A stretch of 61,078 nt of DNA from an uncultured Bacteroidales bacterium. Its GTDB lineage: Bacteria > Bacteroidota > Bacteroidia > Bacteroidales > F082. Of this stretch, positions 32,598 to 61,078 are shown piece after piece. The notes under the pieces are model-generated. The model did not search any database. It was not told the DNA's origin and was given only the letters and a program-made list of their open reading frames with translations. The position numbers and the translations under genes were made by a program. Numbering within the stretch: the stretch's first letter is position 1; the number at the start of each line of letters is the position of its first letter. The stretch spans positions 1 through 61,078 of the forward strand of contig CAJOIF010000025.1 of NCBI GenBank assembly GCA_905234765.1, in the 5' to 3' direction.

Positions 32598-33346
32598 AGC
32601 AGGGTCTGGAAATAAAACGCCACCGAGCCCACGAAGCAAACGGGCATCTCACGGCATTCCTTGTAACGTAGCACAAACACCTTGATGAAGTCGGTGAGGC
32701 ACTCCTTCACCAACGTCTTGACATAAGGATGATCGAGATGCTCACCGGCGAATTCGGTGAAACCCGCCAGGTACTTTGAGGCTTCTTTTTGGTGATAAAC
32801 CCTATCGATGAACTCACGGATTTCAAGATAATAGGTATTATCGAATTCCAGTTTTAGGTCAGGTGGCATCAAATCGTAGAAATAGGCGCGGGTGAGTTTC
32901 CTTCCGATGTAGCAGCCACTCCCCTCGTCGCCTACCAGATAGCCCAGCGACACGGCACGGTCGACGATGTCGTTGCCGTCGTAGACGCAGGAGTTGGCGC
33001 CGGTGCCCAAGATGCAGACGATGCCTTCACGGTGTCCCAGCACCGCATGGCAGGCCCCCATCAGGTCATGGGTGACCATCACCTCGTGGGCTTCTTCGAA
33101 ACGCACTTTGAGAAACTGATGCATCTCCTGTCGGGCGGCTTCGTTGCCACAGCCAGAGCCGTAGTAATAAACAGCATCCACGGCAGGGAGGTCCTTGAGC
33201 TCCTTGTAAAGGATATCGAGAAACACGATGGTATCGGCATAGTTGGGGTTAAAGCCCCTCGTGGCGACCCGTTGGACCACCGTTCCGTTTTCCAAAACCA
33301 CCCATTCGGTCTTGGTAGAACCCGCATCTGCAATCAGCACTTTCAT
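32513..33346 (-). CDS. BadF/BadG-family ATPase, N-acetylglucosamine-kinase-like
   Basis: A 277-residue protein of the ASKHA fold: N-terminal phosphate loop MKVLIADAGSTKTEWVV, central HDLMGACHAVLGHREGIVCI and ILGTGANSCVYDG, then GYLVGDEGSGCYIGRKL. This matches the BadF/BadG family members annotated as N-acetylglucosamine kinase in Bacteroidota. Its ATG overlaps the tssF stop (ATGA at 33343-33346), so it is translated from the tail of the T6SS transcript. It converges on miaA with an 85-nt overlap. Cytosolic amino-sugar recycling is the likely role; a link to the injection machine is only positional. Confidence 0.75.
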   Translation of the reverse strand: MKVLIADAGSTKTEWVVLENGTVVQRVATRGFNPNYADTIVFLDILYKELKDLPAVDAVYYYGSGCGNEAARQEMHQFLKVRFEEAHEVMVTHDLMGACHAVLGHREGIVCILGTGANSCVYDGNDIVDRAVSLGYLVGDEGSGCYIGRKLTRAYFYDLMPPDLKLEFDNTYYLEIREFIDRVYHQKEASKYLAGFTEFAGEHLDHPYVKTLVKECLTDFIKVFVLRYKECREMPVCFVGSVAFYFQTLLYECLSAEGLTMGKVMRSPMDGLIQMYS

Positions 33347-34989
33347 CTTTTGTCTTTTACGATCATCACCCTCACGGGCATCAGTCCTGAGCTATGGACG
33401 TCGATAACGCGTTGGAGCCTTTGCTGGATGGCTTCGATATCCAGTCCCGGGTCGACTTCCGACACGAAGGCTACCACGGTACGGTTGTCGTCCTCGTCGG
33501 CCACCTCGATACGGTCGACGCTGCCGATGTCGTATTTATATAGCTCCTTGACGCAGAACGACTTCAAGTCGGAGCGGGTCACGATCTTGTCGTTGGTCAA
33601 AGTATAGTAATGCGCCAGCATCTTTCTCTCGTCCTCGTTGGTCACCTCATCTCTTCCGCCGGAGGTGCGTGTCAACAGCCGTGTCTGGCCCAGGTCGAAA
33701 TCGCTGGGGGCCGCCACGATGGGAGCTCCTGCTTCGATGTCGTTGCCTTTGGCCCCGTCAGTATAAAGGGCTGTGAGCGGAATGGAGACGTCCACTTTGG
33801 CATCTTCCTTCAACAAGGCATAAACGCCAGTCTTGGGATTGCCCTCTTTTTTCACCGCGGTGATGATGTCCTTCAGCAACACCTTCAGTTTGCGCATCTT
33901 GTCGCCGTCTTGCAAGGACGTGATGGTTTGGTAGGCATAGAAATCGGTGCTGTTGCGTTTTTGGAGGGTATCGGCCAGGCGGAGCAGCTCGTTCAAGCCG
34001 AAGCGCTCGCAGCCGTAGCGACGGAGGATGAATTTGTCGGCCTCTTCCACGGTGTCGTACTCCCCTACCAGATTCATGAAGTAATCCACATCGTCGGCAA
34101 TCTTCACGATAGGTTCCGAGGGAGTCAACGCGAAATGCTTTTTTGTGACGTTTACTATGGGGAATGCGTTGATGCAGATGTTGTTTACATCGACGCTCTT
34201 ATTCTTCAGCCCTTCGAAATCGAGGATAAGTTCCACGGTGCCTTGACTCAGGAGGATGGGCGTATAAGGATCGGTCATGTAATATGGCACACCGGTCTCC
34301 GCCCAAAGGTCGAACCACTGCTCGTTGGTGCCAAAGGCCAGTGATTTGTTGTAGATGAGGTTCCAGAACGAGAAGTCGGGATTCATCGGAAAGCTGTCGT
34401 ACTCCCAAGGACTGATCAGAGGGACTTCTTTGTCGCCATAGTGCATGGTCACATCGTCGAATTCCAGGTTTCTGAAGAGGAATCCCACACCGCCCAGCAC
34501 GGTTCGTTCGTCGGTGACTTCGAGGGTCAGTTTACATTTCCCGTCAAGCATACGTGTAAATGAGGTGACGGTGGCACCGATGATGTTCGATTCGAACAGC
34601 GGTTTAAAATCCAGTTTGTCGCGTCCTTGAAAGGTTTCTTTCAGCACCGTGAAGGTGGTGTCCTCCCCTACCAGGCAACGTGTTGGATTCCCTGGGGCTT
34701 TGGCGGTGCACATCATGGCGACGGCCGGGTTGGCTTTCATCAGGTGGTAGGGCAACATGGTTTCCTCCAGCTCGCTCACCATGCCAGTGCGGAACTGTTC
34801 GATGTCGTTCTCAATCTGGTATTCCTGATAGGCCAACGCGGTAATCAGCAACGACACCAAGGGATCCTTGTCCATCCCATATAAAGGTGAGTTGGGGTTG
34901 TCGCGCTCCCATTTCCCCTCTTTGGCCCACAGCGCAAACACTTTGTTTTTCAGCTCAGTAGTTCGGTTTCTAATATCGTCGTTGTTCAT
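33343..34989 (-). CDS. tssF: T6SS baseplate protein TssF, copy 1
   Basis: A 548-residue TssF-like protein. The N-terminal region KDPLVSLLITALAYQEYQI then EETMLPYHLMKANPAVAMM is the hallmark of TssF (a block of D-P-x-x-x-x-L-L-x-A-x-A-Y followed by L-P). RRYGCERFGLNELLRLADTL is shared with the second copy at 45631. TssF forms the baseplate wedge with TssG, TssK and TssE. It ends the first baseplate module and is 2 nt from tssE. Confidence 0.8.
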   Translation of the reverse strand: MNNDDIRNRTTELKNKVFALWAKEGKWERDNPNSPLYGMDKDPLVSLLITALAYQEYQIENDIEQFRTGMVSELEETMLPYHLMKANPAVAMMCTAKAPGNPTRCLVGEDTTFTVLKETFQGRDKLDFKPLFESNIIGATVTSFTRMLDGKCKLTLEVTDERTVLGGVGFLFRNLEFDDVTMHYGDKEVPLISPWEYDSFPMNPDFSFWNLIYNKSLAFGTNEQWFDLWAETGVPYYMTDPYTPILLSQGTVELILDFEGLKNKSVDVNNICINAFPIVNVTKKHFALTPSEPIVKIADDVDYFMNLVGEYDTVEEADKFILRRYGCERFGLNELLRLADTLQKRNSTDFYAYQTITSLQDGDKMRKLKVLLKDIITAVKKEGNPKTGVYALLKEDAKVDVSIPLTALYTDGAKGNDIEAGAPIVAAPSDFDLGQTRLLTRTSGGRDEVTNEDERKMLAHYYTLTNDKIVTRSDLKSFCVKELYKYDIGSVDRIEVADEDDNRTVVAFVSEVDPGLDIEAIQQRLQRVIDVHSSGLMPVRVMIVKDKR

Positions 34990-34991
34990 GG

Positions 34992-35459
34992 TTACCAGAT
35001 TTTGATTTTGTTGAAGTAACTGTAAGGGGTATCGTAGCCATCGTCGATGATGCCGGTGACATTGACCAGCAAGACGGTGCCGTGCATGATGAATTCCATG
35101 GCGACTTGCACGTCCTTAAGCCGTTGTTCATATTGGGTTATGGTCTCGTAAAGATGGGTGGCGAAAGTATCGGTGTTGATGCTGGAGCCATTGATTTTAG
35201 ATTTGTGGACAGGATCTTCGATGGAGGCTATGATATCTTTCTTTTTCTTTTTCTCGACATGATGGAACAATCCCGTTTCGGGGCTATAGATCTCGAACCT
35301 GAAATCCTCCAGGGCAAAGCCGAAGTCGTCATCGGCCTTGAAACTGTCCTTGCCCGAGGCAATCAGCAGGTCGAGGAACGCATCGATCGACTTTTTGATG
35401 CCGTCCTGTCCTGGGACGACATTGGTATTTTTCATGATAAGAGGTCGCTTGACGTACAT
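34992..35459 (-). CDS. tssE: T6SS baseplate protein TssE (gp25-like), copy 1
   Basis: A 155-residue protein of the GPW/gp25 family. Hallmark DDDFGFALEDFRFE (about 41-54), and a C-terminal part with YEQRLKDVQVAMEFI and LVNVTGII. gp25 proteins nucleate sheath assembly on the baseplate. The copy at 47394 shares these motifs but little else. A lysine run VEKKKKKDIIA distinguishes this copy. Confidence 0.8.
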   Translation of the reverse strand: MYVKRPLIMKNTNVVPGQDGIKKSIDAFLDLLIASGKDSFKADDDFGFALEDFRFEIYSPETGLFHHVEKKKKKDIIASIEDPVHKSKINGSSINTDTFATHLYETITQYEQRLKDVQVAMEFIMHGTVLLVNVTGIIDDGYDTPYSYFNKIKIW

Positions 35460-35469
35460 GACAGCTCAA

Positions 35470-36357
35470 TTATAAGATGGGGCACTCGGGTTCCAGCTCA
35501 GGTTCCGGTTCTGGTTCTGGTTCTTGTTTTACAACTTGTTGATATTCAATAATTTCTACAGTTGGAAGTATCTCATAAGCTTTGATGAGGAAGCCACAGA
35601 CCTGGGTAAGGAACAACTGTATGTCGTAAGGGTTGTATTTGGTGAAATGGACAGGGTCCTCGGTGATGACATAGGAAAGCAGGCGGACGAAGCGGCGGCA
35701 CAGGGTCGCAAAGGCGCTTGGCTTTTGGCTTTTGTCGACGCTATCCATCTCTTCGGACAGCATCCTCATCATGTCGTGGTTGCGGAGATAGTTGAATTTC
35801 TCGTGAGCGGTGATTTGCCTGACCAATTGCATCATGGCATTGATCATCTCACCCAAGACCTGGGAATCGGCGATGGTCATCACGGGAACGATGTAATCGT
35901 CTTGGAGTTTCCAATGGCCGTTTTCGCAGACCACTTTGGCGATGGGCATGGTTCCTGGAAGCGTTTCCAAGCTACGTAGCCCGAATTCATATTCATTGGC
36001 GACGAAGGGCACCTCGTCGAGTTCGTATTCACGTTCCTTGTCAGAGAGCCAGACAGCGAGATAGCCGCTATCGGATAGGCTTGAGAGGTTCCATTGTTGT
36101 CCAACCTCGCTTTTAACATCCACCAGGCCTCCGTCTTGCAGGAGGGCGTGACATTCCAAGCCCTTGACGAAGAGGGTCTGGTCTTCAACGCTTGCCTCTA
36201 CTTCGAACGGCATACCGGGAATCAACCCGAACTGTTGCGCGGCCTGCACTTTACGCAACAGCGTACGGTATTCGGCCAGCTGGTTCTCTAAATGGATGAA
36301 GGTCTCCGGGAGAAGCTCCATTCCAGTGTTCCATTTGATTCTGATGTCCTTGTTCAT
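35470..36357 (-). CDS. tssK: T6SS baseplate protein TssK, copy 1
   Basis: A 295-residue TssK-like protein. The N-terminus IRIKWNTGMELLPETFIHLEN is the T6SS-iii form of the canonical W-x-x-G-M-x-x-x-P-x-x-F motif. TssK bridges the baseplate to the inner-membrane complex. The C-terminus is a Glu-Pro repeat (EPEPEPELEPE), a shorter version of which occurs in copy 2, so the tail may be an extended linker. Overlaps tssG by ATGA at 36354-36357. Confidence 0.78.
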   Translation of the reverse strand: MNKDIRIKWNTGMELLPETFIHLENQLAEYRTLLRKVQAAQQFGLIPGMPFEVEASVEDQTLFVKGLECHALLQDGGLVDVKSEVGQQWNLSSLSDSGYLAVWLSDKEREYELDEVPFVANEYEFGLRSLETLPGTMPIAKVVCENGHWKLQDDYIVPVMTIADSQVLGEMINAMMQLVRQITAHEKFNYLRNHDMMRMLSEEMDSVDKSQKPSAFATLCRRFVRLLSYVITEDPVHFTKYNPYDIQLFLTQVCGFLIKAYEILPTVEIIEYQQVVKQEPEPEPEPELEPECPIL

Positions 36358-37136
36358 AGTTCTGTGGTGTTATTACGGGGGTGGTTGCCAAGGGTGGCGT
36401 TGTAGTCGAGTAATAGTTTGTTGGGTCCATCGATACGGTCATCTCGCTCATAGTCCCTTACCTTGAAGTCGCATTGCAGTTCGAAGGGAACGAACCATTC
36501 CTTCACGAAAAGGAAGAAGGGTTCCAGTTCTTCCAGATAGTGAAGGAAATCGGGGCGGCTCAATCCTGGGCGGTTGACTATGAAGCGAAGGTGGCTGTTG
36601 GTGAGCTTATAGTGGGTCCTGAACCCGAGGATAAGGGTAATGGCTTTGCACAGGAAACGGTAGTCACCTCTGACGCGTGCCACTTGGGGCATCAAAGGCA
36701 TCATCTTGCGGACATAAGGGTCGCGTTGCTCGGTGAACTCATCTCCGAAAAAGGTCTGAAGCAGCGTTTTGTCCTTGTCGGCCAGAGTCTCGTTCACCTC
36801 GCGTTCCAGTGCGAGCGAGTGGTTGAAGTACGATGAGTCAAATGGCAGTAGCACAGTCTTGATGCGTTCACGTCGTTGTTTCAGCACCTTCTCGGTCCAT
36901 TCGAAATCGCTTTCGTTGACGCCTTGCAATTCGTTGCCTTTGAAAAACAGCCCATTAGGGAGTATCTCATAGAGGCCGTCGCGTGACAGCTCCACGCTGG
37001 CATTCTCGGCATTGCAGGAACGGAGATCTTCGGCGTAGTCCCTTGAGAAGATGCCTTTGGTATGGGCAATCCACTCTTTCTGGGTGGGATGGGACGCTGA
37101 CAGCCAGGTTTCCGCTTTGATTTCCTTGCCTTCCAT
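36354..37136 (-). CDS. tssG: T6SS baseplate protein TssG, copy 1
   Basis: A 260-residue protein. SVELSRDGLYEILPNGLFFK and YFNHSLALEREVNETLADK match positions in the second copy (VELSRNGLYELIPEKLFFN at 48799-49572), and both lie between TssK and a membrane-protein gene. This is the TssG wedge partner of TssF in subtype iii systems. Its start shares a base with the stop of the vWA-RING-FHA gene, so the two are coupled. Confidence 0.72.
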   Translation of the reverse strand: MEGKEIKAETWLSASHPTQKEWIAHTKGIFSRDYAEDLRSCNAENASVELSRDGLYEILPNGLFFKGNELQGVNESDFEWTEKVLKQRRERIKTVLLPFDSSYFNHSLALEREVNETLADKDKTLLQTFFGDEFTEQRDPYVRKMMPLMPQVARVRGDYRFLCKAITLILGFRTHYKLTNSHLRFIVNRPGLSRPDFLHYLEELEPFFLFVKEWFVPFELQCDFKVRDYERDDRIDGPNKLLLDYNATLGNHPRNNTTEL

Positions 37137-40100
37137 CAGATTCGGTCTTTTTCAATATACGTAAACACGGTCTTCCCTATGCGGAACGAAGTGCCGTGCG
37201 ACAGTTTGCTGACTGCGTTGGAACTCATGTTCTTGAGGTAAGGCATGTCGTTTTCCATATAGACTTCGGCTTGAATGCCATCAAGTCCCTCAGTATCATC
37301 CCAATCCATGTCGATATAGCAGCGGTCTGAGCGGCCGATGGTGACCACGCGGTAGCCACCGGTGCGGTTCATCCATTTGTATATGGCCACGTCGCGGCTC
37401 TTCAAGTTGCCATCGATATGGAGGAAGTAACGTTTGGAGACGTGTTCGTGTTGGGCGATGCTGGCATAGAAGCCTCCGGCGAAGACCATGACTCCGATGA
37501 GGCAGAGCATGTTGGCCAGCAGACCGAGATAATGGAATTCAAAGTTGCTTCCGTCGAAGCTGAACAGGTATAGGACGGCAAAGCCGAGCATGGCGAACAG
37601 GAAGCCACACAGCACGCCTCGTTTCATGGGCACCGACGAGCGGTATGAGACGACGAACCCCACCCCCGCTCCGGTCAGCAGCCACGGGATAATGTCAACC
37701 AGGAAGTTGTTGTAATCCTTGCCAGTACCCAGCGCCACCACGCTGCCGATGAGGAAGGCCACAAAGCCAACAAGCAGGCCACAGAACGCACGTAGTACGA
37801 TGATGCCGACACGTTTGGCGGTTTTTTTGCGGCGTTCCACAAGCCACGAGGCGCCTAGGGTGACGATGAATCCGACGATGACCCCGAAGAACAGGCTGTC
37901 GTGGATCTTTTCCACGAAGGCGTTGCCCGAGGCATCCAGTCCGACTTTGTCGGAGAGCATCACCATGTCGCTGATGAAGTCATAGAACAAAGTGTTATGG
38001 GTGGTGAGTCGGAACAAAAGCCAGCTGACGAGACCGACAAAGCAGCCTGCGATAAGCCATTTCAGGAAATGCGGAGCGTTGCGGGGGTCCCAACGACGGT
38101 CTTCGTTGTAGAAATAGTTGCCGTTGTCGCATTCCTTGCCGAACTCGGGGCACTGGTGTCCGTTTTCCTTCCAGCACTCGTAATGCATGGTATGCTCACA
38201 ACGGGTCACAATTTCGTCGCCTGGCTGGAAGGCATCCTTGCAATAATAGCACTTCTGACCCACGTAGTCGCTGGCTTTGGTAGGCAGAAGGTTGGCGCGG
38301 TCGAAACGTTTGACATATTTCTTCTTGAAGATCTTATACCTGCATCTTGGATAGGTGATGCGGAAGACGATGAACAGCAGTCCAATCAGAATCAGTGCTA
38401 TTAGGGTACATTGTCCGATGATGGTGAGTTGCCGTTGGAAGCTGTCGTGCACATAAACAGGGTCGAGCAGCGAGCCTTTGGTGAAGGAGCGCGAGCCGAA
38501 GGCATCCAATCCCTCTTGTTGCACATAGGCATAAAGCGTGAGTTTCTGCCCATCGTACAGCTTTTGTGAAAGGTTGGTGATGACCATGCGGTAGTCCATG
38601 GCTTTCGGGTCGGGACGCATGATCTGGTCTTCCTTCAGGGTCTCAAAATCGTATTCCGGGTAGAAGCAGTCGCCATTCTTTGACACGTACTGCACCTCGC
38701 TATGGAAGTCGTCTCTCTGGAATCCGTCGCCGAAATAAATGAAGTTCACTTGGGCGTTTCCACGCAAGTCCTGTTCAGAAATCAAGGTCATCTTGATGCG
38801 GAAGAAGTCTTCTCCGCCGATATAGGTGCCGTCGGCGTTTTTGTAAACCCCGTTGGTCATCACAATGATTTCCTTTTTGGCGTCGTTTTTCAGACCGGCG
38901 TTGTATTCGACCTCGGGATAGAAGTCGTGTGTGTCGTGTTGGGAAGACTCCTCCAATACAGACGCCAATGCCTTATAGATGAATTTCTCCTGGGTCGATG
39001 GTAAGTTAAAGCAGGTGTCGAGCCATTGGGTCAGTTGATAATAGTCTTTGATTTCGGCTGTCGGTGTGCGCGAGCCGTCCATGGCGGTGATATAGAAATG
39101 CGCTTTCGGGAAACCCTGATAGATCTCGGTGATGGCTTGGCGTTGGGCTTGCATCTGTTCGGTGGTGGCAGAGCGGTCGGCCAGCACGATAAGCGAGTAG
39201 TTGCCTGCGCTGTAGTCGGGATCGTAGTCGCGGATATCCAGCACGTCGACGAGGGTGGTACCTGAATTGTGGCCGTTGTATCCGGTTTCGGAGATGCTGA
39301 CCGACTCTTTGTTGATGGTACCGAGGTTGAGTTTCTTGCCATTGTCGACGACCTTGAAGTCGACGAACACCGTGTCGAGTCCGGGCCGGTAACGAGGATA
39401 GTCGAGCACAATCTCCTGGGCGTGCACCATGGGGGCCAGACACAAAAGCAACAGCAAACCGAGCACGGGGGTGTCATTGTTGCCCATGAGTTTGCTCATC
39501 TGTTGCTGTGCCTCTTTTGACATTTTCTTGGCTTTTACCTTGCTGCGCAGCATGTTGATGACGAGAAGTAGGGCGAAGCCCACCATGAAGATGCGGAAGA
39601 GCGACTCATAGAGTTTGTCCATGGAGCGGCATTCCAGTTCCTCGATATCCTCGTTGTATTGCTCGATGGTCCCCCAAAGCTGTTGCAGGGTCGGGTCTTC
39701 CATCAGGCTCTTCTGCGCTTCGCTTTCGGAAGAGGCTTTCAGGTAGGCTCTTGTGGCTTTTTTCTTGACGATGGCCAGCGAGTCGGGCTGTTTGTTTTCG
39801 ACGAACCCCTCCCCTTGTTCTTTCAGTTGTCCGAGTTGCACGATGGTCTGCTGGAAGCGGTCCATCAGATTGTCGTAGTCGTGTTGTCGTTCGTGGTCGT
39901 CCTGGAGGCTCTCGACACGTTTCTGAATGGTGTAGTAGGTATGGTTGCAGAGATCGTAGGTATCGTAGAGGGGGCTGTCTTTGGCGACAATGGCGGCGAA
40001 CGATTTTAGACGGTTGCCGGCTTCCTGGAACTCATAGTCGTAGTTGGCGATATCGTCGTAGGTCTGGATACTGTTGTTGAGATTGTTGAGGTCGCTCAGC

Positions 40101-40198
40101 AGGGTATTGAGGTTGGTTTCCAGGGTGTTGTCTTCCTCTTCCTGAGGGAAAGCCAGGAATGGGAGGAACAGCAATATCAATAGAATGATTCTTTTCAT
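37136..40198 (-). CDS. Membrane protein: coiled coil, vWA-like, RING-H2 finger, six TM segments, FHA (candidate E3, copy 1)
   Basis: A 1020-residue protein. Order: signal peptide MKRIILLILLFLPFLAFPQ; periplasmic coiled coil (about 20-190); TM (about 197-215); basic loop; a second signal-like hydrophobic stretch (about 245-260, ending MVHAQ); a vWA-like domain with the MIDAS-type LIVLADRSATT; TM; RING-H2 finger C650, C653, C667, H669, H672, C675, C683, C690; six TM segments; C-terminal FHA-like domain with VVTIGRSDRCYIDM. RING and FHA are both predicted cytosolic. It equals the separate 258-residue and 792-residue proteins of module 2 fused in one chain. RING fingers recruit E2 enzymes, and an E2 gene is in the same operon. 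The last RING ligands deviate (C-x6-C) and the FHA lacks the usual histidine, so activity is not assured. Confidence 0.75.
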   Translation of the reverse strand: MKRIILLILLFLPFLAFPQEEEDNTLETNLNTLLSDLNNLNNSIQTYDDIANYDYEFQEAGNRLKSFAAIVAKDSPLYDTYDLCNHTYYTIQKRVESLQDDHERQHDYDNLMDRFQQTIVQLGQLKEQGEGFVENKQPDSLAIVKKKATRAYLKASSESEAQKSLMEDPTLQQLWGTIEQYNEDIEELECRSMDKLYESLFRIFMVGFALLLVINMLRSKVKAKKMSKEAQQQMSKLMGNNDTPVLGLLLLLCLAPMVHAQEIVLDYPRYRPGLDTVFVDFKVVDNGKKLNLGTINKESVSISETGYNGHNSGTTLVDVLDIRDYDPDYSAGNYSLIVLADRSATTEQMQAQRQAITEIYQGFPKAHFYITAMDGSRTPTAEIKDYYQLTQWLDTCFNLPSTQEKFIYKALASVLEESSQHDTHDFYPEVEYNAGLKNDAKKEIIVMTNGVYKNADGTYIGGEDFFRIKMTLISEQDLRGNAQVNFIYFGDGFQRDDFHSEVQYVSKNGDCFYPEYDFETLKEDQIMRPDPKAMDYRMVITNLSQKLYDGQKLTLYAYVQQEGLDAFGSRSFTKGSLLDPVYVHDSFQRQLTIIGQCTLIALILIGLLFIVFRITYPRCRYKIFKKKYVKRFDRANLLPTKASDYVGQKCYYCKDAFQPGDEIVTRCEHTMHYECWKENGHQCPEFGKECDNGNYFYNEDRRWDPRNAPHFLKWLIAGCFVGLVSWLLFRLTTHNTLFYDFISDMVMLSDKVGLDASGNAFVEKIHDSLFFGVIVGFIVTLGASWLVERRKKTAKRVGIIVLRAFCGLLVGFVAFLIGSVVALGTGKDYNNFLVDIIPWLLTGAGVGFVVSYRSSVPMKRGVLCGFLFAMLGFAVLYLFSFDGSNFEFHYLGLLANMLCLIGVMVFAGGFYASIAQHEHVSKRYFLHIDGNLKSRDVAIYKWMNRTGGYRVVTIGRSDRCYIDMDWDDTEGLDGIQAEVYMENDMPYLKNMSSNAVSKLSHGTSFRIGKTVFTYIEKDRI

Positions 40199-40210
40199 TT
40201 TAATCTTGTT

Positions 40211-40525
40211 TTATCCGGCGATGGGGTCAGGAACGACGTCGAGGGTATCGCCATTTTGGATGGCGTAGTCCGACATACGCATGTGGGTCTTGCCGATGCG
40301 GGGTTGCAGGATAATGCATTGTCCGGTGGTTTCGTCCATCTTACCGAAGTAGTATTCTGTCGGGGTGAAGTCGATCATCTCGGGCAGGTTGAAGAAGCGT
40401 TTGCCTTCTTTGTCGGCGGCGTTTTTAAGGCTATTCATCAGTTGTTCCATCTCGTAGTTGGGATCGGAGATCTTGAACTTGATGGATTTGTTACGATAGC
40501 GGATATGAACATAAAAGTCTTCCAT
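40211..40525 (-). CDS. Ubiquitin-like protein 1, ends in -DPIAG
   Basis: A 104-residue protein starting MEDFYVHIRYRNKSIKFKIS at ATG 40523-40525; a longer frame upstream only overlaps the PAAR gene. The beta-hairpin start, a helix (EMEQLMNSLKNAADKEG), ILQPRIGKTHMRMSDY and the end NGDTLDVVPDPIAG follow the beta-grasp ubiquitin order. It is about half identical to ubiquitin-like protein 2 at 58734 and shares the exact C-terminus DPIAG. A terminal Gly is the residue an E1 adenylates, so this copy would need no processing. Located between the candidate E3 and the PAAR-VgrG tip genes. Confidence 0.75.
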   Translation of the reverse strand: MEDFYVHIRYRNKSIKFKISDPNYEMEQLMNSLKNAADKEGKRFFNLPEMIDFTPTEYYFGKMDETTGQCIILQPRIGKTHMRMSDYAIQNGDTLDVVPDPIAG

Positions 40526-40545
40526 ATTTATATTTAATTTTACTA

Positions 40546-40929: not shown

Positions 40930-40956
40930 CTTAAATTTGAATTTATTAATAGAGAG

Positions 40957-43227: not shown

Positions 43228-43245
43228 GATATCGACCTCCTATAA

Positions 43246-45629: not shown

Positions 45630-45630
45630 A

Positions 45631-49572: not shown

Positions 49573-49575
49573 AGT

Positions 49576-50787: not shown

Positions 50788-50795
50788 GGTGAAGT

Positions 50796-52151: not shown

Positions 52152-52169
52152 AGCTTACGATTTGTTCTG

Positions 52170-54548: not shown

Positions 54549-54551
54549 ATG

Positions 54552-56162
54552 TTAAACTCTTTTTCTTCTAATCCATTCTTTCATTTGTGTGAGGGTGCTG
54601 TCGCCGACGTTCTCAAAGGACCCGTTGGCATTTTTCACCCAAACGATGACTTTGTCGTCGGAAGTGCAGTTGACGATCACTTTGCCATCGGCGATTTCGG
54701 TGGCATACTGCGACAGTTGCGAGGCATTGAGCCCATCGCCGAAGACCAGGCATCCCGCCTTCTCCTCGTTGTCGTAAGGAAGGCAGCAGCCGATCTCCAG
54801 ATAGCGGTCGTGCTCGTCGCCGAACAGGTACCCTACGACGCCTTTGCTGCACGAGTACAGTGTGGTGTCGATCTGGTTGATGGCATGGGGGGCAAGGCCG
54901 AGATAATCCATGGTATCGCCTTTGAGGGTAATGTTGAAGCAATCGGGGTTGGTACCGAAGCACTCCTCCTCTTTGGGTGTTTCCACTTTTCCTCCGTTGG
55001 AACGGCTCTTCTCACGGCCTTCGCGGTAGATGTCCTCGAACGAGAACCAGCGTTTCACGTCTTCCTGGTTGTTCATGGTACCGTCGTTCTTGGCAGTGAA
55101 GAATCCCGTCTTGAGTTCGGGGGTGTTGGTATCGATGACGATGGCCAGCAGGCGGTTCTTGTGTTCAGGATAGGTCAGCTGTTTCTGCACGATGAGGTCG
55201 TGGTTCGAAAGGAACAGGCCCAAGCCTGGGTGCGAGTGCATCCAGCAGGTGAGCAGGTAGTCGCGTTTGGTTTTCTGTGCCAGGTTGTCGATCACCGAGG
55301 CCATGTTGATGCTGATCTTTTTGCCGAAGTGCAGACTGTACTCGCCAAAGTCGGCATCATCGCCCGGTTCCACCATATACTCGAGGCTGATGTCGTAGCG
55401 TCCGTGTTTCCCTTTCTGCAGGTCCCAACAGCCCACGATGAAGCAGCCGGTCTCGTTGGTACGTCCGTCGCTTTCGAGTGAGTTGCTGAAGAACTCATAG
55501 AGGTTCTTGATCAGGGCGGTGCTAAGGTACACCCTGTCGATGGCGGTGTCGTCGTACACCGTATCCATGTCGAACGCGATGTATTCGTTGGGATGTTCCA
55601 CGACATGTTTCAGACCGCATTGGTATTGAACGGACTCGTCCTTGATGATGGAGATGACACTCGGATCGTATTTGATGGTGTCTTGGGCTTTTGAGGCCTT
55701 CTTTCTGCGGAGCAGGAAGAACACGAGTGCGACGAGGGCCAGCGCCACGACGGCAAGGATGATGTACAGGGTCAGTTGGCGTTTTTCCTGTTTTTCCACC
55801 ACATTGGGGTCGATGGGTTTGGGCTGTTGGACGGGACGCATCTCTACGTTGATGACGATGGGTTCGCCATTGAAGATTCCTTTGACGTTCACGGTCTCGT
55901 CGGTGGAAAGGCCGACGGGACGGAACTCATAGGCTTCGGTGCTGGCCATGAACATGCAGCTCTCGCGTCCTCCCCACTCGAAGCAGTCGCGGATGGCTTG
56001 GTTCTCGATGGCGTCGCGCTGGAACTCCAGGCGACCCGAGGGAACGGTGATCGTCAATTTACTGCCATTGAAAACCATAGTAGGCTCCTGGGCCATCGCT
56101 CCCAGGACAAGGAACAGGATGGCGGAGCATATCAATGTTATTCTGTGTTTCATGGCAATCAT
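54552..56162 (-). CDS. Membrane-tethered JAMM/MPN isopeptidase
   Basis: A 536-residue protein. Signal HRITLICSAILFLVLGAMAQ, a beta-rich periplasmic part (about 25-125), one TM (LTLYIILAVVALALVALVFF), then a cytosolic JAB1/MPN domain with the zinc motif HSHPGLGLFLSNHD (H309, H311, S319, D322), the exact H-x-H-x7-S-x2-D of deubiquitinating metalloproteases, preceded by TGCFIVGCWD. It should cleave isopeptide bonds to, or release, the -DPIAG proteins. The start at 56162 overlaps the previous stop as ATGA; ATG 56153 is an alternative. A third domain (about 400-536) is unassigned. Confidence 0.85.
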   Translation of the reverse strand: MIAMKHRITLICSAILFLVLGAMAQEPTMVFNGSKLTITVPSGRLEFQRDAIENQAIRDCFEWGGRESCMFMASTEAYEFRPVGLSTDETVNVKGIFNGEPIVINVEMRPVQQPKPIDPNVVEKQEKRQLTLYIILAVVALALVALVFFLLRRKKASKAQDTIKYDPSVISIIKDESVQYQCGLKHVVEHPNEYIAFDMDTVYDDTAIDRVYLSTALIKNLYEFFSNSLESDGRTNETGCFIVGCWDLQKGKHGRYDISLEYMVEPGDDADFGEYSLHFGKKISINMASVIDNLAQKTKRDYLLTCWMHSHPGLGLFLSNHDLIVQKQLTYPEHKNRLLAIVIDTNTPELKTGFFTAKNDGTMNNQEDVKRWFSFEDIYREGREKSRSNGGKVETPKEEECFGTNPDCFNITLKGDTMDYLGLAPHAINQIDTTLYSCSKGVVGYLFGDEHDRYLEIGCCLPYDNEEKAGCLVFGDGLNASQLSQYATEIADGKVIVNCTSDDKVIVWVKNANGSFENVGDSTLTQMKEWIRRKRV

Positions 56163-56935
56163 ATTGAGGGCAGTTCTTCTTCTTTTTTCTTCGCGGGTTT
56201 TTCCTTCTTGGGTTTCGTGAGTTTCGCCGCTTTGATCTTGGTGGAGATCATGGTGACGATCAGCACCACGGCGGCAAGGATGCCCACGATCTCCAGGATC
56301 ATGGTCAGGTCGACGGGGCTCTTCACGATCTCAAGGGCGGAGATGCGTGAATAGGTATCCTTGATCTGTTTCCATTGCTTCGTCAGGTCTTCATCTTCAT
56401 CGATGAAGTCGCGGTTGGCGCCGTAGTCGACGGTAGCCTCGTCGACGAAGCATTCTTGGGCCTGTTTCTTGATCAGGTTGAGCGAGTCGAGGCGTTTGTT
56501 GCCGACACAGCGGTTTCCGGCTTCCTCCAGCTCCGTCAACTGTTCCAGATAGCGGTTCAGCTTGACGGTGAGTTTGTCGAGACGTTCCTGCTTGGCTTTC
56601 TCGGCCTTCAGTTCCTCGATGCGCTTGCCGAGTTGCTGGTAGAGGTCGGTATAGTTCTCATACACGGCATACAACTTCTTGTCGTAGCGGAAATACTCGG
56701 TGTTGTCGTTGTAGCACGACTCCACGAGCTTGAGCTGGTTCTTGTAGCGGTTCTCCAGCCGTTCGGCGTCTTCGGCCGTCTCGATCTGCTGGTCGAGTTT
56801 CACCAGTTCCTTGTAATAGGAGGTCATTTCCTCGGTGACCATATCGAGGTACACGTCGTCCTGGGCCACCGCCGTGTTGGGCATGAAGAAGGCGAGAACG
56901 CCAAGAAGGAGGCTGATACAAAGGTATTTCTTCAT
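56159..56935 (-). CDS. Coiled-coil membrane protein with Lys-rich cytosolic tail
   Basis: A 258-residue protein. Signal MKKYLCISLLLGVLAFFMPN, periplasmic coiled coil (LVKLDQQIETAEDAERLENR, KLNRYLEQLTELEEAGNRCV), TM near 213-233 (MILEIVGILAAVVLIVTMIS), then a lysine-rich tail (KIKAAKLTKPKKEKPAKKKE). The first ~240 residues of the 1020-residue protein of module 1 share this plan (coiled coil, TM, then KVKAKKMSKEA), so this is the unfused counterpart. The lysine tail is a plausible acceptor for ubiquitin-like conjugation. Confidence 0.7.
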   Translation of the reverse strand: MKKYLCISLLLGVLAFFMPNTAVAQDDVYLDMVTEEMTSYYKELVKLDQQIETAEDAERLENRYKNQLKLVESCYNDNTEYFRYDKKLYAVYENYTDLYQQLGKRIEELKAEKAKQERLDKLTVKLNRYLEQLTELEEAGNRCVGNKRLDSLNLIKKQAQECFVDEATVDYGANRDFIDEDEDLTKQWKQIKDTYSRISALEIVKSPVDLTMILEIVGILAAVVLIVTMISTKIKAAKLTKPKKEKPAKKKEEELPSI

Positions 56936-56946
56936 AGCTCAGCGGT

Positions 56947-58104
56947 TTATTTTCCGAGTTTCTTCACAAATTCGTAATTCTTGAGCAGTTTGGCGTCAAG
57001 TTTGGCCTTGCAGCCTGAGGGCAGGTTGTTCAGCTTTTCATCGAAGCTCTTCACAGTGGCGTCGAAAGAGGCTTTCTTCTCTGCTTTGCTGGCGGCATCG
57101 GAGGCCATATTGATATCGTTGACCAGGTTGTTGAGTTTGTTGGAGATCGACTTGATCTCGCCGTTGAGTTTGGCCACGTCGCAGCCTGAGGGTTCGGGCT
57201 TTACGCCGCCGCCACCGCCGGTGGATTTACCCATTTCTTCGATGCGGCGCATGGTTTCCATCCAGTTGTCGTAGCTGGCTTCAATCTCGTCGCAGCCGGT
57301 ATTGGCAAAGCGGTCGACATCGATCTCGCCATAGAGGCGCATGATGAAATCCTTGTATGCCTTTTGGTTGGAGGGACTCTTCTTGAGTTCGATGAGTTTC
57401 TCTTCGGCGATGGCGAACATGTTTTCATACTCCTGGATGGTCAGGATGTTCTGTTCGGCGTCTTTGCAGCGGCCCAGTTCGATGTTGATGGTGATGTCTT
57501 GTGCGACGAAAGCCATATAGGCTTTTTTGCCGCCCTTACGGTTCAACGGGATGGGGTTGCGGAGGGTCAGGGTGACGTTTTTGGCTTTGTTGGTGACGTT
57601 GAAGGCCAGGTCGAGCACCATAAGGCCGTCGAGGGGCACCATTTGGTAGTCGAGTTGTTTCTTCACCTTCATCTTCTTGGGGACCTTCAGGTCATAGATG
57701 CCTTTGAAGGTCATGCCTTGGCATTTGATGGAGGCATATTCGGTATCGCTCTTGAAGCCGATGACTTTTTCCTGGTCGGTATAGGTCTTATCTTTTTTCA
57801 GTTTGATGCCGCGTTCTTTGGCATAGGCTTCCAGTCCGGTGAATGGCACGTCATGCTGGATCAACCACACCTTGTTGTAGGGGCAGTTGGTCTTGCCTTT
57901 GCCCATGTGGACCGTGAGGGTTTCGGTAGCCTGGTCGAACTCGAAGTTGAGGTTCATAGTGGCTTTGGCCACGCTGGCATTGTAACCTGGGATTTCGATT
58001 TCGAGGTCGACGGGTTCCTGATGGACGGCTTTCACTTGGTATTGGGCGGAAAGCATCGCCGGGAAGAGAATCAGTGAAACGAGTATTAATGATAATTTTT
58101 TCAT
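56947..58104 (-). CDS. Exported protein with Gly-rich linker, paralogue B
   Basis: A 385-residue precursor with signal MKKLSLILVSLILFPAMLSA. Layout as in paralogue A: beta domain (AFNVTNKAKNVTLTLRNPIP), helical segment, short linker STGGGGGVKPEPSGCD, and a helical tail ending LLKNYEFVKKLGK. It also shares the late CDVAKLNGEIKSISNKL pattern (CNVKKVNDDLKAAVVKM in A). Periplasmic by signal; function unknown. Located between E2 and the coiled-coil membrane protein. Confidence 0.65.
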   Translation of the reverse strand: MKKLSLILVSLILFPAMLSAQYQVKAVHQEPVDLEIEIPGYNASVAKATMNLNFEFDQATETLTVHMGKGKTNCPYNKVWLIQHDVPFTGLEAYAKERGIKLKKDKTYTDQEKVIGFKSDTEYASIKCQGMTFKGIYDLKVPKKMKVKKQLDYQMVPLDGLMVLDLAFNVTNKAKNVTLTLRNPIPLNRKGGKKAYMAFVAQDITINIELGRCKDAEQNILTIQEYENMFAIAEEKLIELKKSPSNQKAYKDFIMRLYGEIDVDRFANTGCDEIEASYDNWMETMRRIEEMGKSTGGGGGVKPEPSGCDVAKLNGEIKSISNKLNNLVNDINMASDAASKAEKKASFDATVKSFDEKLNNLPSGCKAKLDAKLLKNYEFVKKLGK

Positions 58105-58130
58105 AACGATTAATTCTAAATTCTAAGTTC

Positions 58131-58721
58131 TTAATTCTTTTTTCTCAACTCTTCGATCCAGCCTTGGGGTTCAGCTTGTTCCAGGATCCATTCGGCCACG
58201 AGGTTGTCTTCGGGGAACGGAGGGGTGTTGAGTGCGTGGTATTTCTCATATTTCAGATACGACATCACGCGGTCGATATACCAAGCCAGGTCGGTGAAGG
58301 TACCGCAGGCGGGAGTATTGAGGCATACGCGGCCGGCGAAGTCGCCATAGAAGCGGATGTTGGGATGCCAGGGGTGCGGTATCTCATTGCCTTGGGCGTC
58401 CTTGGTGATGAACTTGAACTCCAACTTGCTGTCCACGGCGGGATAGTTGTTGGGGATGGTGATGTTCATGCGGAACTCGTCGGCGGTGATGGGCTTGCGG
58501 AGGCCGTTTTCGTCGGGATCGCCCACGTTGCAGAACGAGGTCACCTTGAAGACGACTTCGTACTGGGTAGGCAGATTTTCCTGGTTGCGTCGCGTGATGG
58601 TGTAGGTGATGTCATGGTCGTCGTGAAAACGCTGGTCGATGGCCGACCACTCATGCATCAGGCGGCGGTTGCGGCCCACATAGCGATTCTGCTTGTATTG
58701 GTCAATTTCTCTTGCTTCCAT
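58131..58721 (-). CDS. E2-like ubiquitin-conjugating enzyme
   Basis: A 196-residue protein. The centre reads HPNIRFYGDFAGRVCLNTPA: H119-P120-N121 is the E2 HPN motif and C133 the catalytic cysteine, with the correct 14-residue spacing seen in eukaryotic E2s (HPN...G.ICL). The upstream FRMNITIPNNYPAVDSKLEF matches the E2 strand-loop (f.v..p..YP..pP...f), and the C-terminal LNTPPFPEDNLVAEWILEQA matches the late helix. This is one of the clearest E2 folds one can see in bacteria. It would accept the ubiquitin-like protein from the E1 and work with the RING proteins. 12 nt from ubiquitin-like gene 2. Confidence 0.88.
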   Translation of the reverse strand: MEAREIDQYKQNRYVGRNRRLMHEWSAIDQRFHDDHDITYTITRRNQENLPTQYEVVFKVTSFCNVGDPDENGLRKPITADEFRMNITIPNNYPAVDSKLEFKFITKDAQGNEIPHPWHPNIRFYGDFAGRVCLNTPACGTFTDLAWYIDRVMSYLKYEKYHALNTPPFPEDNLVAEWILEQAEPQGWIEELRKKN

Positions 58722-58733
58722 GATCGATGGCTT

Positions 58734-59048
58734 TTATCCTGCGATGGGGTCCGAAATAATCTCAAGGGTGTCGCCGGGCTTCACATTGTAGTCGAGCAAG
58801 GTCTTGGTGGTCTTTCCGATTTTGGGTTGCAAGATGATGTCGCGACCGGTGGCTTCGTCTTTCTTGCCAAAGAAGTACTCGGTGGGGACATAGTCGATCA
58901 TCTCGGGCAGGTCGAAGATGCGCTGGCCGGTGGTGTCGACAGCCTTGCGGAGGTTGTTCATCAAAATCTCAAGTTCGGTAGTGGGATCGGTAACTTTGAA
59001 CTTAATCGTCTTGTTCTTGTACCTGAGGAATAAAAAGAAGTCTTCCAT
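58734..59048 (-). CDS. Ubiquitin-like protein 2, ends in -DPIAG
   Basis: A 104-residue protein starting MEDFFLFLRYKNKTIKFKVT, with helix ELEILMNNLRKAVDTTGQ, ILQPKIGKTTKTLLDY and the end GDTLEIISDPIAG. The beta-grasp order and the exact length and terminus match ubiquitin-like protein 1. Substrate of the E1/E2 pair by context. It is adjacent to the E2 gene. Confidence 0.75.
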   Translation of the reverse strand: MEDFFLFLRYKNKTIKFKVTDPTTELEILMNNLRKAVDTTGQRIFDLPEMIDYVPTEYFFGKKDEATGRDIILQPKIGKTTKTLLDYNVKPGDTLEIISDPIAG

Positions 59049-59081
59049 GATGTTTAGTTTTTATTTGTTGATTAATTTAAA

Positions 59082-60584
59082 TTATTCGATGATTAATTTT
59101 TCAGTTTTGGAGTTTTCCTGTCCGGTGATGTTCACCATGTAAAGGCCGCTAGGCAGGCTTACGTTGAGCGATGCCTGGGTGCCGTTGACAGTTTGTTGGT
59201 GCAACAGCCGTCCGTCGAGGCTGTAGATGCTGATGGTAACTTCTCCCCCGCCATCGTTCACAACGAGGAGCCCTTCGTTGGATTGGGCCGGGTTGGGGCA
59301 CAGGCTGAGGGTAACGGGCGCTTCCACAGTATATTCAGTGGTGAAGGCGCCTCCAAAGAGGTTGCCGTTGGCGTCGGCATTGAAGCTGAGGTAAAGCTTA
59401 TAGGTACCGGCATCGAGGCCATTGGCTTGGTAGTAATATTGTCCTTTGGCGCCGCTGATGGGGGTACCGTCTTTGTACCATTGGTATTTATAGGTGTCTT
59501 TTGGATTGGGATAGATCAGGATGTATTCCCTGCCGTTGTTCTTCTTGGCCACCAGGTCTTGGACGTCGGCTGCGTTGACGTAGGAAATCACGTTGACTTT
59601 CATCTCGACGGTGCCGGAGCATCCTGTCTCGGTGTTCTCGGCCAAGAGGGTGACGGTGTGTTCGCCCGGGGTGGCCCAGGTCACGACGAGTTTCTTGCCC
59701 GTCGCGTTGGTAGTGGCGGCTTCGTCGCTGACGGTCCATGTCAGTTCGGTACCGTTGACGTGAGAGGCGGTATAGGTGCCTTTCTGCATCGTGCAGAGTT
59801 GGGTATCGCCTGTGAGTTCAGGTTCCACGGTATAGACCTTGATGCTGACCATGTTGCTATAGGTAGTTCCAGCGGCATTGGTGGCGTAGTAGCGCAGCTT
59901 CCATCCGTTGTAGCTGGCATCGAGTTCCTGGCCTTCGTAGACTACCGCTTCCTGGAAACTGTTGTTGGGGGCCATCTGCCATCCCTGTTCTTCGGCGAAG
60001 GCCACTTCGGGGGCGGTCAGTGTCAGCGTGTCGCCTGCACAGATGCCTTGTGGGGCTTCGATGTCGGCCACAGTGGGGGGTGTCATCTCGAAATGCGCCA
60101 CCAGTTCCACGTCCTCATTGATTTGGAAGACGTATTTCTGCCGTTGGCTCACCTCATCTGCACCTTGGGTCCAGTTCACGAAAGCATAGCCTTCGTTGGG
60201 TTCGGCTTCGACGGTCACCTCTTCCCCGTAGCCGAATACACCGGCGCCGGTGACAGTGCCGCCTTCCTCGGGTTCGGCTGAGAGCGTCACTCTGAACTTG
60301 TCGCTCGTATAAAGTACCGTTATTTCCACGCTCTGGGCGGGCATCCTCCCTTTCACGGTGTCCTTGTCGGCGTGATAGTGTTCGATGACGGGCGAAACCA
60401 CCAGATAACGGTCTCTTTCCTTCAAGGTGTCGTTGACATAGTCGTTGGCGGCCGTAGTGCTGTCAGCCGCATACAGGTAATGAATCGTCAATTTCAGCCT
60501 GTCTTTGGGCGACTGTTTGATGTCCTGCGCCTGCGCAAAGGAGGCGATCAGCAGCAACAGTGTGAAAATCAGATACTTTTTCAT
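59082..60584 (-). CDS. Secreted protein with InlB-type repeat and type IX sorting domain
   Basis: A 500-residue protein with signal MKKYLIFTLLLLIASFAQAQ. Residues about 110-170 (GGTVTGAGVFGYGEEVTVEA, GYAFVNWTQGADEVSQRQKY) are an InlB B-repeat/Bacteroides-Listeria repeat. Two Ig/PKD-like segments follow (LTWTVSDEAATTNATGKKLV). The last ~75 residues (VTISIYSLDGRLLHQQTVNG, LPSGLYMVNITGQENSKTEK) are a type A T9SS C-terminal signal, so it is exported to the surface by a different machine. Its presence inside the T6SS/ubiquitin-like operon is unexpected; possibly an adhesin. Confidence 0.75.
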   Translation of the reverse strand: MKKYLIFTLLLLIASFAQAQDIKQSPKDRLKLTIHYLYAADSTTAANDYVNDTLKERDRYLVVSPVIEHYHADKDTVKGRMPAQSVEITVLYTSDKFRVTLSAEPEEGGTVTGAGVFGYGEEVTVEAEPNEGYAFVNWTQGADEVSQRQKYVFQINEDVELVAHFEMTPPTVADIEAPQGICAGDTLTLTAPEVAFAEEQGWQMAPNNSFQEAVVYEGQELDASYNGWKLRYYATNAAGTTYSNMVSIKVYTVEPELTGDTQLCTMQKGTYTASHVNGTELTWTVSDEAATTNATGKKLVVTWATPGEHTVTLLAENTETGCSGTVEMKVNVISYVNAADVQDLVAKKNNGREYILIYPNPKDTYKYQWYKDGTPISGAKGQYYYQANGLDAGTYKLYLSFNADANGNLFGGAFTTEYTVEAPVTLSLCPNPAQSNEGLLVVNDGGGEVTISIYSLDGRLLHQQTVNGTQASLNVSLPSGLYMVNITGQENSKTEKLIIE

Positions 60585-60597
60585 TTATTCTATATTT

Positions 60598-61078
60598 TTA
60601 TTTTATTTTTGTCAAATACAACAATTCTCTTCCGTTCAATTGGTCCAAATCATGGTTGAACAATTTAATAAAAGCCTCTTTAAGATTAACTCTGCCACGG
60701 GTGTCGCGTTGCATTCCATTGCCGGTGGCAGACAGCATTTTGAGATTGAGATGCGCGCTTTCTTTTGGGTCTTCCATGATGGGTTCATGCATGATGCCAT
60801 CCAGGAAGCTCCATGAGCGTTCTGCATGGAAGTGCCGGTTTACATTGGTTTTCAGTTCGTTGTAGAATTTATGGTCGAACTCCTCTCCTATCTCGCCATA
60901 CACGTTCACATGGACCAGGTCGTGGGAGGCCACCAGCCGGTCGTAAGCCTGCCTGATGGCTTTCTGCACTTCGTTGCGGACAGCGCTTTGTTCGTAAAAG
61001 CCCAATCCAAAGTCCTTCTTCATCCGTATGGCAGGCAGATGCGGGAAGTAGTCGTAAAACTTGTCCTTTGTATTGAAA
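60598..61078 (-). CDS. Unrecognised protein, 5' end beyond the window (partial)
   Basis: The frame is open through the right edge, so an ATG at 61021-61023 is probably internal (KDKFYDYFPHLPAIR precedes it in frame). The visible ~158 residues include FGLGFYEQSAVRNEVQKAIR, YGEIGEEFDHKFYNELKTNV and LFNHDLDQLNGRELLYLTKI. No signal or membrane segment is visible. First gene seen of the minus-strand T6SS/ubiquitin-like operon, 13 nt from the T9SS cargo gene. Function unknown. Confidence 0.6.
   Translation of the reverse strand, partial: FNTKDKFYDYFPHLPAIRMKKDFGLGFYEQSAVRNEVQKAIRQAYDRLVASHDLVHVNVYGEIGEEFDHKFYNELKTNVNRHFHAERSWSFLDGIMHEPIMEDPKESAHLNLKMLSATGNGMQRDTRGRVNLKEAFIKLFNHDLDQLNGRELLYLTKIK

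Follow-up and report, generated by a model that had tools for sequence, protein, structure and literature searches.

Ubiquitin-like conjugation genes within a type VI secretion locus of Bacteroidales that appears to lie apart from described T6SSiii

We analyzed a stretch of 61,078 nucleotides from an uncultured Bacteroidales bacterium (contig CAJOIF010000025.1; the whole stretch is called the window below), in which genes for a ubiquitin-like conjugation pathway lie among genes for a type VI secretion system (T6SS). Positions 33343 to 61077 hold 24 packed minus-strand genes, with a spacing of -17 to 33 bp between neighbors, which encode two TssG/TssK/TssE/TssF baseplate sets, Hcp, VgrG, PAAR, an E1, an E2, a JAMM isopeptidase, two ubiquitin-like proteins (Ubl), and two membrane RING proteins. 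An initial annotation, made from the sequence letters, had described E1, E2, RING, JAMM, and Ubl genes interleaved with T6SS genes in one minus-strand run, and we found all the named genes at the places it gave. From 61077 downward, unit 1 consists of a partial gene, a secreted protein, Ubl1, E2, Sec39, Sec258, JAMM, RING1, a beta-barrel-like protein, E1, TssG, TssK, TssE, and TssF; unit 2 follows with a second Sec39 (392 aa), Hcp, VgrG, PAAR, Ubl2, RING2, TssG, TssK, TssE, and TssF. Sec39 and Sec258 are our own family labels, and transmembrane (TM) segments were called by a simple hydropathy rule. The features are as follows.

59082 to 60584, minus strand: secreted protein with a C-terminal sorting domain, in a variable slot upstream of Ubl1
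58734 to 59048, minus strand: Ubl1, 104 aa, DPIAG end (ubiquitin fold in model)
58131 to 58721, minus strand: E2, 196 aa, WHPN motif and catalytic Cys133 (profile matches, conservation)
56947 to 58104, minus strand: Sec39 family, 385 aa, N-terminal hydrophobic segment (hydropathy), predicted periplasmic part of the membrane complex
56159 to 56935, minus strand: Sec258 family, 258 aa, N-terminal hydrophobic segment, coil, one TM segment near the C terminus
54552 to 56162, minus strand: JAMM isopeptidase, 536 aa, membrane-anchored, catalytic domain predicted cytosolic (Pfam, profile, hydropathy)
52170 to 54548, minus strand: RING1, 792 aa, with vWA domain (predicted periplasmic), TM segment, cytosolic RING, about five TM segments, and FHA domain (Pfam, conservation, model)
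50796 to 52151, minus strand: coiled-coil and outer-membrane beta-barrel-like protein, 451 aa (OMP_b-brl_2, 0.0037, below cut-off)
49576 to 50787, minus strand: E1, 403 aa, ThiF domain, invariant Cys187, C-terminal extension (Pfam, PDB match, conservation)
48799 to 49572, minus strand: TssG of unit 1 (profile comparison)
47893 to 48780, minus strand: TssK of unit 1, acidic tail, P-M-I end (profile comparison)
47394 to 47873, minus strand: TssE of unit 1 (profile comparison)
45631 to 47379, minus strand: TssF of unit 1 (profile comparison)
44469 to 45647, minus strand: second Sec39-family protein, unit 2 (34% identity to the first)
43246 to 44448, minus strand: Hcp/TssD with long extension, 400 aa (PF17642, 1.3e-17)
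40957 to 43227, minus strand: VgrG, 756 aa (VgrG OB domain, 6e-21)
40546 to 40929, minus strand: PAAR-like spike tip (DUF4280, 1.4e-33)
40211 to 40525, minus strand: Ubl2, 104 aa, DPIAG end (60% identity to Ubl1)
37136 to 40198, minus strand: RING2, 1020 aa, a RING1-like protein with a fused Sec258-like domain (encoded by two genes in relative G002)
36354 to 37136, minus strand: TssG of unit 2 (38% identity to unit 1)
35470 to 36357, minus strand: TssK of unit 2, C-P-I-L end (32% identity to unit 1)
34992 to 35459, minus strand: TssE of unit 2 (likeness to unit 1)
33343 to 34989, minus strand: TssF of unit 2 (38% identity to unit 1; Pfam TssF 0.15)

Paralogues in the two units share 32 to 60% identity, highest for Ubl and lowest for TssK. 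Ubl, RING, and baseplate genes have been duplicated together, and the run has one E1, E2, and JAMM against two Ubl-RING-Sec39-TssG/K/E/F units. Unit 2 also follows unit 1 in the relatives G001 and G002. We placed the start of Ubl2 at MEDFYV, treating the longer open reading frame (ORF) as over-extended. Neither tssB nor tssC was found in the window, whose sole ClpV-like protein, a Clp ATPase, is encoded outside the run, on the plus strand (27570-30224); in the close relative G001, sheath genes lie just past the homologous point (L125). The Hcp at 43246-44448 is longer than a plain TssD (130 residues) by about 270 residues, perhaps owing to a fused effector or chaperone part. Relatives differ in what they carry upstream of Ubl; inside this T6SS run the slot is filled by the secreted-protein gene at 59082-60584.

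We identified E1, E2, and JAMM from sequence and made structure models of one Ubl and one RING protein. The E1 matched ThiF in Pfam (1.3e-52), and its closest solved structure in the PDB was SUMO E1 subunit 2 (4.8e-26), with MoeB behind at 3.6e-22. As a single protein, the E2 gave a match of 0.0034 to Pfam UQ_con, and an earlier profile of 21 closer relatives matched no solved structure; a profile of 18 relatives led to ubiquitin E2s in the PDB (UBE2K, 6.6e-5). JAMM was matched by Pfam as a single protein (8.8e-4), and its profile, with HSHPG and LS..D, led to Rpn11 (1.3e-8). The best solved relatives of E1, E2, RING, and JAMM were eukaryotic enzymes, in a library (PDB) that is itself rich in eukaryotic proteins. 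The catalytic Cys was invariant in 74 of 74 alignment rows for E1 and in 81 of 81 for E2, and the JAMM motif in 18 of 18; a length filter had removed some rows ahead of these counts (for E1, 74 rows compared with 74 locus hits plus the window).

For the RING proteins, the best Pfam matches (0.0024 for RING1, 3.1e-5 for RING2) did not reach the curated cut-offs. That of RING2 was Prokaryotic RING family 1 (Prok-RING_1, PF14446), which Burroughs et al. reportedly linked in 2011 to E1, E2, Ubl, and JAB with transmembrane helices; scores against this family were 24.3 bits for RING2, 15.9 for RING1, and 19.6 for a protein from L029, with a curated cut-off of 29.1 bits. The top solved match of the RING profile was the RING domain of RNF126 (0.0038), and the second, at 0.0064, was an unrelated WD-repeat protein. 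All eight zinc ligands were invariant in 79 of 79 rows; a set of 35 rows that included genomes G031 and G061 (see below) kept seven invariant and C455 at 90% or above. When the RING model was used for a structure search, the matches were dominated by the vWA domain, FHA was also recovered, and the RING segment was not. The Ubl had a weak Pfam match (0.025), and its predicted model, with a mean confidence (pLDDT) of 91.5, matched ubiquitin-fold domains. Rather than Gly-Gly it ends in a single Gly, after Ala or Pro, which was invariant in 81 of 81 rows. The folds proposed in the initial annotation were thereby supported, by the Ubl model for the ubiquitin fold, by searches that led to eukaryotic E1, E2, and Rpn11, and by the RNF126 match and conserved ligands for RING. 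Its suggestion that DPIAG remnants be sought on lysines has to be changed: as read from the sequences, trypsin would not leave DPIAG, because the last Lys of Ubl lies further upstream, and Asp-N would.

On the secretion side, Hcp, VgrG, and PAAR of the window were identified by their Pfam families (listed above), and TssF, TssG, TssK, and TssE were scarcely detected by Pfam or NCBIfam. In profile-profile comparisons with canonical T6SSiii, the T6SS type described in Bacteroidota, they matched at 99.4% (TssF), 99.2% (TssG), 98.3% (TssK), and 97.5% (TssE) probability, using canonical profiles of 2 to 4 proteins per family; three mismatched controls scored 0.1 to 0.5%. The TssK match was restricted to approximately the first 200 columns.

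An E2 alignment search of a species-genome collection returned 125 loci, and we analyzed the best 80 of the 125, whose record titles refer to families and genera of Bacteroidales or, more broadly, to Bacteroidia and Bacteroidetes. These loci were retrieved via relatives of the window E2, so the sample favors the window's lineage, and they were truncated at 10 kb or by the end of the contig, which makes the gene counts lower bounds. Iterated profiles detected Ubl and E2 in all 80, Sec39 in 79, RING in 78, Sec258 in 76, TssG and TssK in 75 each, E1 in 74, PAAR in 65, TssF in 63, and TssE in 62; the less frequent families were JAMM and VgrG (17 each), the beta-barrel protein (15), the secreted protein (13), the partial gene (8), and Hcp (3). 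E1, E2, Ubl, and RING occurred together in 72 loci. At least two of TssG/K/E/F were present in 77, and at least one of these or of VgrG/PAAR/Hcp in 79, the exception (L053) having none. The window's Sec39 protein gave no persuasive match in Pfam, and Sec39 members searched against Pfam yielded no family common to two members. The co-occurrence with T6SS genes that the initial annotation anticipated was thus found in related loci, and in the 15 carrier genomes described below it extended to the sheath. We rejected a chance neighborhood, as gene order is kept across the 80 loci. We conclude, with a probability of roughly 90%, that this is a dedicated Ubl conjugation cascade belonging to the T6SS.

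Sets of E1, E2, Ubl, and JAB are known from defense, and the genes could instead represent an anti-phage conjugation system, similar to Bil or CBASS type II, that merely lies beside T6SS genes. The E1 does partially match PADLOC E1-E2 models (1.7e-16), and E2, Ubl, JAMM, and RING have no PADLOC match. Interleaving with TssG/K/E/F is kept across the 80 loci, and no further defense gene was noticed in Pfam scans within the run. On the PADLOC scan, with its partial E1 match only, a defense island was rejected, and we regard this alternative as very improbable. As described in the available part of the BilABCD report (PMC11354881), that system also has Ubl, E2, JAB, and E1 in a single operon; it differs in that BilA has two Ubl domains and BilB is of the CEHH type, whereas our system has one Ubl domain (by the model), an E2 with the WHPN and Cys133 pattern, and a RING protein. 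CBASS type II carries E1 and E2 on one chain, which are separate genes in the window, and no CBASS cyclase was among the Pfam matches for the 19 window proteins scanned.

The cassette occurred in two main layouts. Layout A, that of the window and of most JAMM carriers, runs PAAR-Ubl-E2-Sec39-Sec258-JAMM-RING-barrel-E1-TssG-TssK; layout B, in Prevotella, Alistipes, Bacteroides, and Parabacteroides, runs PAAR-E1-TssG-TssK-TssE-TssF-Ubl-E2-Sec39-Sec258-RING and is without JAMM. A horse-faeces genome (G004, L132) joins everything in a single run, ClpV-TssB-TssC-Hcp-Hcp-VgrG-PAAR-Ubl-E2-Sec39-Sec258-RING-E1-TssG-TssK-TssE-TssF, in which TssC was named by profile and ClpV and TssB by position and resemblance. 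These layouts bear on the possibility that the cascade tags cargo, with Ubl placed on Hcp, VgrG, or PAAR proteins or on effectors as a loading signal or delivered tag, and the baseplate linkage arising from a shared operon. Ubl and E2 do come after VgrG-PAAR in layout A, and a related cassette in genome G422 (see below) adjoins PAAR and an eCIS_core protein. In layout B, however, Ubl-E2 is set apart from PAAR, with TssF on one side and the membrane proteins on the other; the E3 candidate is membrane-embedded; and duplication of the baseplate sets went together with that of Ubl and RING. We therefore consider cargo tagging unlikely.

We then asked which injection system the cassette accompanies, using 15 carrier genomes hand-picked from the 80 loci for spread. 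The T6SS sheath protein TssC (PF17541) was present in 15 of 15 (332-365 bits), with an extra copy in G011 that scored 751 bits and resembles canonical TssC; the TssD family PF17642 was found in the window, L014, and L029. TssN was above cut-off in just one of the 15 (G011, outside its cassette locus L037), with a sub-threshold match in G009, and TssR likewise in one, on the contig of that same TssN. A TssN profile of eight sequences matched no ORF of the window or of the 80 loci; TssO, searched for in 12 Sec258 proteins, gave a weak match (0.0029) in one. In a tree of 29 TssC proteins, rooted at the midpoint and to be read with a long-branch warning, 15 carriers formed one clade (100/100) on a long branch; the carrier G061, whose JAMM-containing cassette lies between Hcp/VgrG and TssG-K-E-F, fell on the canonical side. 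Conversely, profiles of Ubl, E2, RING, JAMM, Sec258, Sec39, and E1 matched no ORF at 0.01 in 19 canonical loci, two of them of about 20 kb and the other 17 of just 2-4 kb. The label T6SS-iii-like in the initial annotation therefore fits for the sheath and tube families and fails for the membrane complex, with TssN and TssR in one genome only. Judged from these sequences, the window system is probably a T6SS lineage apart from the described Bacteroidota T6SSiii, its kin by sheath, tube, and baseplate but not a member by membrane complex.

As an even sample, we searched 344 genomes of one order, in which E2 was found in 5, TssC in 17, and TssN in 7 above cut-off and 6 below. E2 overlapped with TssC in 4 genomes and with TssN in 0; with such small counts the latter has a 9% chance, which makes it support and not proof. 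L117 (G262), L118 (G346), and L119 (G273) have TssC with no E2 or above-cut-off TssN, and further membrane-complex variants may exist. Named carriers among the 80 genomes include Xylanibacter ruminicola D31d, Bacteroides mediterraneensis An793, Mediterranea massiliensis, and Parabacteroides distasonis An863, which makes the role of bacterial Ubl systems with RING testable, with Hcp secretion as a read-out. According to the accessible part of one study (PMC11204068), An793, the strain of L037/G011, makes high-level TssD in the chicken caecum; its genome has two TssC genes, and this TssD may stem from either system.

TssK and Sec258 have a matching extreme C-terminal motif, P-x-I/L. Among 60 TssK-Sec258 pairs (56 from the 80 loci and 4 added from relatives), Pro was third from the end in 59 TssK and 60 Sec258 proteins, and the last residues were Ile/Ile in 55, Leu/Leu in 2, Met/Ile in 2, and Leu/Ile in 1, compared with a P-x-[ILVM] end in just 1 of 723 other cassette proteins. 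TssK tails were acidic (58 of 60 at -3 or below) and Sec258 tails basic (median +5 past the TM segment in 74 proteins); the window's Sec258 has a basic cytosolic tail with a P-S-I end. None of the few canonical TssK inspected showed the motif, nor did G014. A simple explanation would be that one partner reads both tails where baseplate and membrane meet.

Where, then, might a T6SS-dedicated cascade act? We put even odds on the baseplate or membrane complex. As a large membrane protein whose vWA domain is predicted to lie outside and whose RING and FHA domains are predicted to lie inside, the E3 candidate points to the junction of membrane complex and baseplate, as do the TM segments of JAMM and Sec258. 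So does the finding of one E1/E2/JAMM beside two Ubl-RING-Sec39-baseplate units; one Ubl per baseplate set is expected of a machine-specific modifier and not of a general tag. The junction is suggested, too, by T6SSiii, where the membrane protein TssN docks TssK and has a ubiquitin-like cytosolic domain fold-related to EccD, entry 7b9f, as stated in the available text of the paper defining its membrane complex (PMC10781749); our Ubl model matched the same entry in a structure search. E1 would activate Ubl via its end glycine and hand it to E2. The membrane RING, Sec39, and Sec258 would replace the TssNQOPR membrane complex, and RING would transfer Ubl at the junction, to TssK/G/F/E or to cytosolic tails of membrane proteins. 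Attached Ubl could then license or lock baseplate docking to the envelope, in parallel to the non-covalent job of the TssN domain in T6SSiii, and JAMM, where present, would reverse or trim the modification. We infer that conjugation takes place, and likewise its target and its effect on assembly. That Ubl is a covalent stand-in for TssN is a tentative proposal, to which we give clearly less than even odds.

Ubls of the YukD/EccD type have structural roles in other secretion systems, and here too Ubl could be a structural adaptor of baseplate or membrane, used non-covalently, with E1 and E2 activating it for something besides lysine conjugation. The match to the EccD fold and the single Gly end would suit such a role; the invariance of the Ubl end Gly, the E1 Cys, and the E2 Cys, and a RING domain that accompanies the set, plus a JAMM protease in 17 of the 80 loci, argue for conjugation. 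We consider the non-covalent reading improbable.

Several results weigh against a Ubl-conjugating cascade that latches the T6SS baseplate to the membrane, or against parts of it. The RING segment of the RING model has uneven confidence, with blocks of 53 to 85. TssN and Ubl are without sequence relation (0.1% probability in profile-profile comparison; TssN against RING gave 18%, over 50 columns of TM), and so the TssN analogy is one of fold alone, with common descent not established. In the even sample, 6 of 17 TssC genomes, one of them (G288) a fragment, had neither E2 nor TssN, which means that other membrane complexes or missed genes exist. JAMM was absent from 11 of 11 searched genomes whose locus is without JAMM, so reversal by JAMM is not general; with 17 of 80 loci and 0 of these 11 genomes carrying it, we rejected JAMM as a constant member of the set. 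The cassette is present without TssC in genomes G031, G422, and G516, and in the latter two the RING homologues have lost most zinc ligands and begin R-D-P-I-T. We take this start to resemble zinc-free U-boxes.

Another idea is quality control, in which Ubl would flag T6SS parts that are spent or have not been assembled, so that ClpV or a protease of the cell, for instance, takes them apart or degrades them. ClpV-like genes do occur in the same loci where those extend far enough, and JAMM resembles Rpn11 of the proteasome lid. Against this stand the missing JAMM in the layout-B or JAMM-less genomes just mentioned, the lack of any protease besides JAMM among the genes seen in the cassette, and the separate Ubl for each baseplate set, unexpected for a general degradation tag. 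We rate quality control as quite unlikely, below cargo tagging.

The cassettes without TssC extend the observations beyond T6SS, and a T6SS in every carrier was accordingly rejected. In a phylum-wide sample of 395 genomes, the E2 profile matched three (G003, G422, and G516). G422 and G516 share the order PAAR-NTPase-E1-Ubl-E2-JAMM-RING-like, with the cassette at a distance of 20-45 kb from the genes of an extracellular contractile injection system (eCIS). In G422, Pfam identified a phage-type sheath, gp19 tube, contractile injection system tube protein, VgrG-like hub, and gp25 about 20 kb from E1, and a PAAR protein, an eCIS_core protein, and an nSTAND NTPase adjoining the cassette; G516 is similar by eye, with large intervening genes and a sheath-to-E1 distance of about 45 kb. 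G031 (L121, L129) has an E1-Ubl-E2-JAMM-RING cassette with complete RING, next to SrfB, an SrfC-like protein, a subtilase, and a second JAB protein. The Ubl of G031 and G516 has residues beyond the Gly, which JAMM could trim. The cassette is thus spread over the main T6SS clade, G061 with its sheath near canonical T6SSiii, and the eCIS neighborhood (G422, G516). Ubl conjugation may be a general and old control layer of Bacteroidota contractile injection systems, with conjugated Ubl as a covalent baseplate-membrane latch and TssN as its non-covalent counterpart; we think this broad version doubtful. In viral contigs, 3 stretches matched E2 and none was confirmed.

We compared the system with those already described. 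In the accessible sections of the paper that defines the TssNQOPR complex, T6SSiii is stated to be the sole T6SS type in Bacteroidota, and it has in common with our system TssC (PF17541), TssD (PF17642), TssE/F/G/K, VgrG, ClpV, and a ubiquitin-fold protein, there the TssN cytosolic domain (PMC10781749). It differs in that the 19 canonical loci searched gave no match to E1, E2, Ubl, RING, or JAMM; in the window lineage, TssN and TssR were not found except in G011, and TssC, G061 excepted, forms the separate clade. Sets of E1, E2, RING, and JAB are already known from bacteria and archaea. The ubiquitylation operon of the archaeon Caldiarchaeum subterraneum, as far as the available text describes it, also groups Ub, E1 with a C-terminal extension, E2, RING, and Rpn11-like JAMM (PMC5654768), whereas the window system has the single-Gly end, a membrane vWA-RING-FHA protein, T6SS linkage, and a JAMM that is often missing. 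A precedent for Ubl in tail building is the phage pair TAPI (Ubl) and TAPK (JAB) of lambda- and T1-type phages, which lie inside a tail-assembly cluster, with no E1, E2, or RING named in the accessible part of that paper (PMC1779556). Among the open-licence papers listed by our searches, judged by title, opening of the abstract, or the text portions available, we found no description of Ubl conjugation genes in T6SS or contractile injection loci, a search that does not show absence from print.

A T6SS lineage with a conjugation set and without TssN and TssR is therefore apparently undescribed. It would be a second T6SS lineage in Bacteroidota, found in no fewer than 80 species genomes and equipped with envelope proteins of its own as well as an E1-E2-RING set; a common kind of injection weapon in gut Bacteroidales carries a full Ubl tagging pathway in its operon. 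This arrangement suggests that protein tagging, in a form usually linked to eukaryotes, is used by these bacteria to assemble or regulate the weapon; if true, Ubl conjugation would assemble or control a bacterial machine instead of serving in defense.

Outside the run, we noticed by eye an apparent defense or mobile island at 2-12906 of the window, with a PAPS-reductase-like protein, a histidine-kinase-like ATPase, a response regulator, and an SMC-like ATPase. At 24959-27521, a DNA gyrase subunit A-like gene (also by eye) is split across two overlapping frames, perhaps by a sequencing or assembly error.

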